A stretch of DNA of 64,000 bases from Marilutibacter aestuarii (GTDB lineage Bacteria > Pseudomonadota > Gammaproteobacteria > Xanthomonadales > Xanthomonadaceae): the NCBI RefSeq assembly GCF_006546775.1, contig NZ_VICE01000096.1, positions 1-64,000 on the forward strand. Direction: 5' to 3'. Of the stretch, positions 2,195 to 5,100 are shown in pieces; the stretch's first letter is position 1, and each line of letters opens with the position of its first letter. Below the pieces are notes generated by a model. It did not search any database, was not told the DNA's origin, and saw only the letters and a program-made list of their open reading frames with translations. The position numbers were made by a program, and so were the translations under genes.

Positions 2195-5100
2195 ATGCCC
2201 GCACCCCGTTTCGCCCACCTCCACCTGCACAGTGAATACTCGCTGGCCGATTCCACCGTGCGGATCGGCGAGCTGGTCAAGCGCTGCGCGACCCTCGACC
2301 AGCCCGCGGTCGCGATCACCGACATCGACAACGTCTTCGCGGCGGTGAAGTTCTACCGCAAGGCCGAGGCCGCCGGCATCAAGCCGATCATCGGTGCCGA
2401 CATCGGCCTGGCCGACGGCAACGAGGCCACCTCGCGCCTGACCCTGCTGTGCCGCGACCGCGAGGGCTACCTGACCCTCTCGCGCCTGCTCACCCGCGTG
2501 TGGATGGAAGGCCACCGCACCGACAGCGTGGCGATGCGCCCGGAATGGCTGCGCGAGGACAACGCCGGCCTGTTCGTGCTGGCCGGGCGCCACAGCCTGG
2601 CCGGCCGCCTGACGGTGGCCAACAAGCACGAGCACGCGGAGGCCTGGCTGGCCGACTGGCAGGGCGTGTTCGACGACCGCCTGCACCTGGAACTGACCCG
2701 CGCAGGACGCGAGGGCGAGGAGGCCTTCAACGCCTTCGCCCTGCATGCCTCGGCCAAGCGCGGCCTGCCGGTGGTCGCCAGCAACGACGTGCGCTTCCTC
2801 GACCGCGACGGCTTCGAGGCGCACGAGGCGCGCGTGTGCATCGCCTCCGGGCGCGTGCTCGACGACCCCAGGCGCCCGCGCGACTACACGCCCGAGCAGT
2901 ACCTCAAGTCCACCGACGAGATGCTCGCGCTGTTCGCCGACGTCCCCGATGCGATCGACAACGCCCTGGCGCTGGCGACGCGCTGCAACGTCGAGATGAA
3001 GCTCGGCGAATACGCGCTGCCCGCGTTCCCCGTGCCGGCCGAGCACACGATCGAGTCCTGGCTGCGCAACGAAGCGCGAGAGGGCCTGCGCAAGCGCCTG
3101 GAGAAGGCGCCGCTGGCCGAGGGCAAGAGCCGCCAGGACTACGACGACCGGCTCGAGACCGAGCTCGACGTCATCATCACGATGGGCTTCCCCGGCTACT
3201 TCCTGATCGTCGCGGACTTCATCAACTGGGGCAAGGCGCACGACATCCCGGTCGGACCGGGCCGCGGCTCGGGTGCCGGCTCCCTGGTCGCCTGGGCGCT
3301 GGGCATCACCGACCTCGACCCCCTGCCCTACGACCTGCTGTTCGAGCGGTTCCTGAACCCCGAGCGCGTGTCGATGCCCGACTTCGACATCGACTTCTGC
3401 ATGGACCGCCGCGACGAGGTCATCGACTACGTCGCGCGCAAGTACGGACGCGACCGGGTCAGCCAGATCATCACCTACGGCACCATGGCCGCGAAGGCGG
3501 TGGTGCGCGATTCCGGGCGCGTGCTCGGCCATCCCTACGGCCTGGTCGACGGCATCGCCAAGCTGATCCCCAACACCCTGGGCATCAGCCTCGACGATGC
3601 GATGGGCGAGACCGAGAAGTCGCGCACGAGCGAGGGCCTGGCCTCCCCGGACCTGATCGAGCGCTACAACAGCGACGAGGAAGTCCGCGACCTCATCGAC
3701 CTGGCGCGCAGCCTCGAGGACCTGACCCGCAACGCCGGCAAGCACGCCGGCGGCGTGGTGATCGCGCCCAGCCCGCTGAGCGATTTCTGCCCGCTCTACG
3801 CCGAACACGACGGCGAGGGCCGCGGCCGCAACCCGGTGACGCAGTTCGACAAGGACGACGTCGAGGCGGTCGGCCTGGTGAAGTTCGACTTCCTGGGGCT
3901 GCGCACGCTCACGATCATCGACTGGGCGGTCAAGGCGATCAATAAACGCCGTGATTCGTCATTGGTGACGCGTGATTCGAAGGAGCAAGCCCCTGCTTCT
4001 GCCAGTCACGAATCCCCCATCACCAGTCACGGCCCCCTCGACATCACCGCGCTGCCGCTGGACGACAAGGCGACCTACGAACTGTTCGCCCGCGGCGACA
4101 CGGTCGCGGTGTTCCAGTTCGAATCGCGCGGCATGCGCGAGCTGCTCAAGCGCGCGATGCCCGACACCTTCGAGGACATCATCGCGCTCGCCGCGCTGTT
4201 CCGCCCCGGCCCGCTGGGCTCGGGGATGGACAAGGAATGGGTGGACCGCAAGCACGGCCGCACCGAGGTCAGCTACCCGCACCCCTCGCTCGAGCCGGTG
4301 CTGTCGCCGACCTATGGCGTCATCGTCTACCAGGAACAGGTGATGCAGATCGCCCAGGTCCTGGCCGGCTACTCGCTGGGCGGTGCCGACCTGCTGCGCC
4401 GCGCGATGGGCAAGAAGAAGGCCGAGGAAATGGCCAAGGAGCGCGCCAAGTTCGAGGCCGGCTGCGCCGAGCGCGGCATCGAGGCCCGGGTCGCGACGCC
4501 GATCTTCGACCTGATGGAGAAATTCGCCGAGTATGGCTTCAACAAGTCGCACTCGGCCGCCTACGCCCTGGTCGCCTACCAGACCGCCTGGCTGAAGGTG
4601 CACCACCCGGCCGAGTTCATGGCCGCGGTGCTGTCCTCGGACATGGACAACACCGACAAGGTCACCGGCTTCCTCGACGAATGCCGGGTGATGGGCCTGG
4701 ACGTGCTCCCGCCCGACGTCGCGCATTCGGCCTACATGTTCGAGGCGACCACACCGGGCACGATCCGCTATGGCCTGGGCGCGGTGAAGGGCGTCGGCCG
4801 CGGCGTCTGCGAGGCGATCGTCGAGGCCCGCCGCGCGGGGCCGTTCGTCGACCTGCTCGACTTCTGCAAGCGCGTCGACAGCGGCAGGCTCAACCGCCGC
4901 GCGCTCGAGGCGCTGACCCAGGCCGGCGCGCTCGACGCGCTCGGGAAGAACCGCGCCAGCCTGATGCTGCAGCTGCCCGAGGTCCTCAAGGCCACCGAGC
5001 AGCTGGCGCGCGAACGCGCCGCGGGCCAGGTGTCGCTGTTCGGCGGCGGCGCATCGCCGGCCGCCGAATTGCACATCGACCTGCCGGTGGTCGACGAGTG

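Follow-up and report, generated by a model that had tools for sequence, protein, structure and literature searches.

The presence of a palindromic repeat inside dnaE raises the question of where such a segment comes from and how the gene of a replicative polymerase accommodates it. The gene lies in a 64,000-nt stretch of the Marilutibacter aestuarii genome, analysed as a whole and called here the window (G codes designate genomes, G000 being that of the window and G004 that of a sister species, and L codes designate fetched loci). At 2189-5779 on the plus strand, a frame that reads through with zero internal stops encodes an intact replicative DNA polymerase III alpha subunit of 1196 amino acids, as indicated by its translation, by matches to solved structures and by domain and family matches, including NCBIfam NF004226 (DNA polymerase III subunit alpha, 1468 bits). 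The interval between NKRR and PLDI holds 27 residues in the window protein, DSSLVTRDSKEQAPASASHESPITSHG, and six in the E. coli alpha subunit (AKNGEP), which agrees with the lengths given in a first-pass annotation made from the sequence. The palindrome that this annotation had placed in frame at 3949-4032 is indeed there and slightly longer, at 3948-4033 on the plus strand, with the ends GCCGTGA and TCACGGC, and it is absent from the six-residue loops. It is an 86-nt imperfect inverted repeat with two arms of 40 nt (3948-3987 and 3994-4033) that are 73% complementary and separated by 6 nt. Its RNA is predicted to fold at -37.7 kcal/mol, whereas dinucleotide shuffles average -21.7 (sd 3.1); this corresponds to z -5.2, and none of the 200 shuffles equalled it.

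The repeat is organized in heptads, read here on the plus strand. The left, G-rich arm comprises four of them at 3951-3978 (GTGATTC, GTCATTG, GTGACGC and GTGATTC, two of the four exact), and is followed by a centre of 26 nt at 3979-4004, which is like centres in two other genomes and not clearly like that of the sister G004. The right, C-rich arm (4005-4032) consists of degenerate inverted heptads ending in TCACGG, with a single exact heptad, of the word GGGATT. Tolerance of the insert had been attributed to a length divisible by three, an account that is incomplete because GTGATTS brings TGA into every frame: since each seven-base unit shifts the frame, a run of three perfect GTGATTS units carries this stop in all forward frames, whereas by inspection GGGAATS units have no TGA. 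The in-frame stop is avoided through TCA: codon 3959-3961 (plus strand) belongs to the unit that, as a perfect GTGATTG, would bring TGA into frame, but this unit is GTCATTG and the codon TCA; the same change is found in G286, a genome of another genus. An AlphaFold2 model of DnaE residues 290-930 (mean pLDDT 82) matches E. coli alpha structures. There, the insert corresponds to fragment residues 300-326, the helix at 283-309 extends into it, and residues 310-323 have a pLDDT under 50, like three other short stretches of the model; the loop formed by the insert is predicted to be disordered.

The dnaE insert is one copy of the dispersed convergent heptad-repeat hairpins of Lysobacteraceae, which are built of G-rich heptads, a centre and C-rich heptads of the same word. 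The heptad pair GKGAWTSGKGAWTS has 137 + 83 occurrences in the genome, that is 220, and 0 for the reversed control, in line with the earlier proposal that the repeat is of a dispersed palindromic kind. The same pattern is counted 247 times in G004 and 3 to 9 times in the congeners G001, G002, G003 and G005. In the stretches that were read, many of the occurrences form pairs around a centre. Pooling G000 and G004, where common sites are counted in both genomes and hence are not independent, the G-rich array comes first in 35/35 pairs with at least two exact heptads per arm and in 56/60 under a looser rule, so reversed pairs exist; the arm words agree in 29 of the 35 pairs (15/17 and 14/18).

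Within the window, a GTGATTS hairpin at 20781-20866 (RNA fold z -5.1) separates the minus-strand frames 20871-22685 and 16911-20768, which the first-pass annotation names rng and yhdP; G004 has a GGGAATS hairpin there. The resemblance to the dnaE insert that had been pointed out for this element lies more in kind (GTGATTS heptads, centre, inverted heptads) than in sequence: a DNA search of the window's own genome with positions 3940-4040 as query listed 14 further matches, all of them partial (E 4.6e-5 to 2), without the 20.8 kb element. Other sites of the window include a one-armed array of 12 GGGAATG units (16695-16778, plus strand), where G004 has one exact unit, a mixed pair at 53611-53669, whose left part is of GTGATTS type and identical in G004 and whose right part is of GGGAATS type, and a GGGAATC array on the minus strand (53929-53977) found by pattern search. 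At positions 1501-1640 of L032 (G000:C65), in what is presumably the dnaK-dnaJ spacer judging by the frames, the upstream gene takes its stop codon (..GAA AAG CCG TGA) from a GTGATTS hairpin, as it also does in G004 (L225).

Two sites bear on the nature of the centre. First, comparison with relatives revealed degenerate GTGATTS-type arms at 62905-63019 that, in both G000 and G004, flank an intrinsic terminator, with the hairpin AGAAAGGCCGCGG..CCGCGGCCTTTCT at 62944-62972 on the plus strand. A like terminator, free of heptads, occupies the same spacer in G001, G003 and G014, the sequence of G005 stopping short of it. Second, the L213/L251 locus is another in-frame case, in the fused mutase IcmF, with B12-binding and MeaB domains (NF045497, 419 bits, a score under the whole-protein cut-off, as is to be expected for a 316-aa piece). 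Here, the arms lie in frame on either side of a native helical segment (like IDDEI.IGRMLSAIEDG) that is recognisable in 28/28 readable linkers among 30 loci. The arms are of GTGATT type in G000, GGGAAT type in G004 and G006, and GGGATT/GGGAAT type in G022, which belongs to another genus; heptad-like linker peptides occur in G010, G025, G032, G059 and G068 (on peptide evidence alone in all but G032), and the linkers of G001, G002, G003, G005 and G014 are free of heptads. These two sites show that the centre of a hairpin can be host sequence. At 20.8 kb, the counterparts of the centre in G001, G003, G005 and G014 were not alike by eye. A native origin of the dnaE centre, hinted at by KEQAP vs AKEGQAP and by local matches, was considered and set aside, as alignments with the nearest empty loops gave it no support.

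The sister species G004 has aligned blocks that are 91-94% identical over most of the window, and its dnaE carries an insert at the same position, of 32 residues, made of GGGAATS units vs GTGATTS units in the window. As anticipated for a lineage-specific insert, the loop has six residues in G001, G002, G003 and G005, the genomes of the same genus, other than G004, with a readable loop; the empty site expected in relatives is thus found in four congeners but not in the sister, where it is filled by another heptad word. The dnaE search in G006, of the same genus, gave weak paralogues only. We resolved 47 orthologous heptad sites between G000 and G004, drawn from the first 100 listed pattern matches per genome and from additional searches: the word is the same at 30, on visual judgement, and switched at 11, 4 sites carry heptads in just one of the two species, and the remaining 2 are mixed. 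A site counts as switched if one species has two or more exact heptads of a single word and lacks exact heptads of the second word, and the sister shows the reverse. L194, L215 and L221 (anchor failed), L036/L041 and L208 (repeated flank), L200 (contig end) and L223 (unmapped) were left out of the 47.

The switched sites are dnaE, the 20.8 kb spacer, L046/L189, L040/L229, L180/L232, L192/L234, L202/L242, L210/L248, L212/L250, L213/L251 and L218/L257. At eight of the 11, GTGATTS in G000 corresponds to GGGAATS in G004, and at three (L046, L202, L210) the direction is opposite. Unswitched hairpins are nearly identical in the two sisters at L032, L063 and L187 and more diverged at L049 and L061. 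Few of the switched sites resemble mosaics (L248 in G000 does), and the centres, trimmed by hand, are clearly alike at only two of the 11 (L180, L213b). Those of dnaE in G000 and G004 are not clearly alike, 32/500 shuffles being as good and the pair falling outside those under 60/1000 in a second comparison. At L216/L255, an intergenic site, a terminator-like interior hairpin is inverted between the two species. Taken together, the comparison suggests that both arms were rewritten together while dnaE stayed intact.

To place the dnaE insert in the family, 395 family genomes were searched with the G004 loop, the family counts being at-least values among the matches listed. The 70 DnaE loops that were read are a non-random set (80 loci of 70 genomes: 30 loci of a first search, 30 best rows of the family search and 20 mostly longer loops) and include two genomes of other families (G058, G068). 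In the first 30 loci (L001-L030), G001, G002, G003, G005 and most other genera have a six-residue loop, and other lengths without heptads also occur, for example in G019, G014 and G028. At least two exact heptads were found in 15/70 loops, belonging to seven genus codes and using five words: GTGATT (G000, G286 and G132), GGGAAT (G004, G200, G363, G421), GGGATT (G129, G135, G157, G249, G390, G380), GGGACT (G236) and GGGACC (G332). One of the 15 is a remnant, since the G132 loop (L318, KGRDSNHGP) keeps just the two ends of a GTGATT-type insert; what is left suggests that a deletion spanned the hairpin. From N to LDI, the 14 intact inserts measure 29 to 67 residues. The inserts of G236 and G332 resemble a single-point insertion after RLAKQ/RLAKE, with a clear alignment for G236 only, and no target duplication relative to empty loops was evident by eye on the alignments inspected.

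A 70-row tree built from the dnaE sequence around the insert, with the insert itself excluded, requires 10 presence/absence changes and 8 word changes among inserts, and the words cluster no more than shuffled labels do (8 changes vs a mean of 8.1). Close relatives indeed have unlike words (G000/G004, G157/G421, G286/G363, G236/G332), G249/G390 sharing the same one. Within an insert the two arms go together. Of the 15 inserts, all but the remnant G132 entered the arm-agreement test, and G380, with no exact C-rich unit, then dropped out; left and right words agree in 12/13, vs a permutation mean of 3.8 and 0/100,000 permutations as high, relatedness being kept in. The one exception is the window insert, whose right arm has GGGATT as its sole exact unit. 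The G-rich arm comes first in 13/13. Centres were compared in 36 pairs of 9 hand-trimmed sequences, a comparison that used 6 of the 14 intact inserts. Those of G000/G363, G286/G363, G157/G421 and G157/G363 are alike across words, each with 0/1000 shuffles as good, and CCTGCTTCTGCC of the window centre recurs in G363, whose insert is of GGGAATC type. The centres of G000 and G286 are likewise alike (0/1000), and the whole G286 element resembles that of the window at 76/93 bases without gaps, GTCATTG unit included. Transfer of the whole dnaE region to G000 from a G286-like donor was rejected: upstream flanks are 0.92-0.99 identical to G004/G001 vs 0.70-0.91 to G286, and downstream flanks 0.87-0.99 vs 0.73-0.92. 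The likeness of the two elements may come from transfer of a short tract or from old inheritance with losses.

A separate observation concerns one clade (G181 L331, G140 L338, G197 L340, G289 L341, G254 L343) in which the dnaE stretch from N to LDI/FDI, KRLADAAAKGIDAGPAMNHTFK.., is 25-28 residues long and heptad-free. Judging from these loops, dnaE apparently also grows there in ways other than heptads.

How, then, can a word change in both arms at a site that stays in place? We lean, if only slightly, towards a reading in which the arms evolve in concert, by slippage and by template switching between the inverted arms, and are tolerated in flexible loops. Once an array and its inverted partner are present, unit variants would multiply inside one arm through replication slippage and reach the other arm through template switching, which would sometimes also invert the interior, so that the word changes in both arms and the site, sometimes with its centre, persists. 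In dnaE and icmF, tolerance would rest on a flexible loop or linker, on arms that compensate their length modulo three and on the removal of stop-bearing frames. Template switching between inverted arms is described as leading to arm homogenisation and spacer inversion in yeast genes (PMC8604942) and as creating and maintaining stems in RNA genes (PMC8794818). Arm homogenisation and spacer inversion, both predicted in the accessible parts of these papers, are both seen here; the cases treated there involve short arms and few substitutions, whereas here whole multi-heptad arms change word, and do so with a polarity. Slippage and template switching would account for the agreement of the arms, the inverted interior and the change of word with a kept centre. 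Template switching by itself leaves the G-rich-first polarity and the arrival of the first array outside the account. If the arms do evolve in concert, these hairpins document how inverted arms evolve together in nature, and how repeat DNA becomes protein sequence.

Alternatively, the same flexible spots could be hot spots at which complete new hairpins repeatedly replace the old ones, a course of events that we regard as rather unlikely. It would fit the presence/absence changes on the dnaE tree and the occurrence of arms in this dnaE loop and in the icmF linker of several genera. Moreover, at 9/11 switched sites, including dnaE, the centres show no clear likeness, so that replacement of the whole hairpin is possible at most switched sites, and the unlike dnaE centres of G000 and G004 led us to give less weight to concerted evolution of the arms and more to replacement. 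However, the like dnaE centres across words in other genomes and the conserved icmF centre would be unexpected under replacement, which would in addition require a clean removal of the old arms each time.

An insertion in dnaE of a MITE-like mobile element with its own centre, moved by a transposase acting in trans, is unlikely. The dispersion of the hairpins and the like ends of some of them would suit such an element (for example GCCGTGATTC..GAATCACGGC at L032, where the GCCGTGA/TCACGGC ends recur), as would the empty sites in relatives, the point-like insertions of G236 and G332 and the 4/47 sites with heptads in just one species. Yet the centres at the sites read share no one sequence, two of them are host DNA (the 62.9 kb terminator and the icmF segment) and the word switches at the same site, heptads differing between the sisters, all of which speaks against the single MITE with its own centre proposed in the first-pass annotation. 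Y1-transposase genes (PF01797) are, furthermore, without flanking heptad arrays and present too in the heptad-poor G001, G002 and G005.

The polarity of the arms still calls for an explanation and offers a concrete hint at a mechanism. A hypothetical telomerase-like or RNA-templated activity could add the same G-rich heptad word at facing 3' ends flanking a host segment and periodically overwrite both arms; we consider its existence quite improbable, but if it were real, polarity, arm agreement, host centres and word switching at a fixed site, even in dnaE, would all follow. Finally, selection at the protein level, in which the arms would have been recruited as flexible linkers that benefit DnaE and IcmF, is highly improbable: although the frame is open in the dnaE rows among the matches listed and the same loops are reused in dnaE and icmF, arms also lie in many spacers, 55/70 of the dnaE loops read are without them, and the peptide varies in length, as given above, and is not conserved.

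The best-known in-frame palindromes are those of Rickettsia, and earlier accounts treat heptad arrays as simple repeats. The heptads of the window hairpins belong to the GGGANTN repeats of Xanthomonas and their kin, with which they share the unit length, the word family, and a dispersed, mostly intergenic arrangement in convergent pairs (Rehm et al. 2015, PMC4692102). For the GGGAATC heptads of that genus, the accessible part of the same paper reports 70 convergent pairs in Xcc and 75 in Xac, with 11% and 7% of the repeats intragenic in two genomes, marks dnaE among the repeat-associated genes and favours a simple-sequence, G-quadruplex reading (Rehm et al. 2015, PMC4692102). The GTGATTS word, the in-frame arms around host segments and the switching of words at orthologous sites set the present hairpins apart from the Xanthomonas account, as far as it is known to us. 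With regard to G-quadruplexes, the GTGATTS units in the left arm of the window insert are devoid of a per-unit GGG tract, and the dnaE inserts of G004, G363 and G421 use GGGAATS. The palindromic elements of Rickettsia are about 100-150 bp long, dispersed and tolerated in frame in conserved genes (Ogata et al. 2000, as cited in the review PMC2229807). Dispersed palindromes in frame in conserved protein genes are a feature shared with the hairpins described here, and the window dnaE is likewise a conserved gene left intact by an in-frame insert. The Rickettsia elements, as presented in the accessible part of that review, form families with a sequence of their own, whereas here a tandem 7-mer changes its word and the centre can be host DNA.

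Among the best-ranked papers listed by a literature search, which left many subscription journals outside its coverage, no title or abstract opening dealt with heptad arms lying in frame in dnaE or icmF, with such arms flanking host segments, with a dnaE loop that has five words or with words that switch at orthologous sites of sister species. Across the family, one site of a replicase gene shows that such repeats can be gained, diverge in both arms at once between sisters and be lost again, the gene staying open.

REP/RAYT elements are short dispersed palindromes close to gene ends. Unlike these, the heptads show no link to Y1-transposase genes: a Y1 transposase (RAYT) as the mover was rejected after inspection of 12 PF01797 loci in 6/7 genomes, where any exact heptads within about 1.5 kb were isolated ones. 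One of the regions encountered (G004:C13:3195-6860; L298, L301, L304) has three similar Y1-transposase genes (PF01797) in a row, with AAAGGGGACGGA..TCCGTCCCCTTT repeats nearby.

The window also contains repeats other than heptads. Copies of a second family, the dispersed palindrome GGCTGGATCCCAGCGTTCGCTGGGATGACGG, lie at 12194-12224, 44260-44288, 53753-53783 and 53874-53904. Two copies, 757 bases apart and 91% identical, of a 57-nt sequence bearing a GAGCCGGC..GCCGGCTC hairpin and a T run lie at 44088-44144 and 44845-44901, and a tandem-like duplication of about 110 bp, with 85-95% identity, occupies 12060-12169 and 12369-12477, 309 bases apart.
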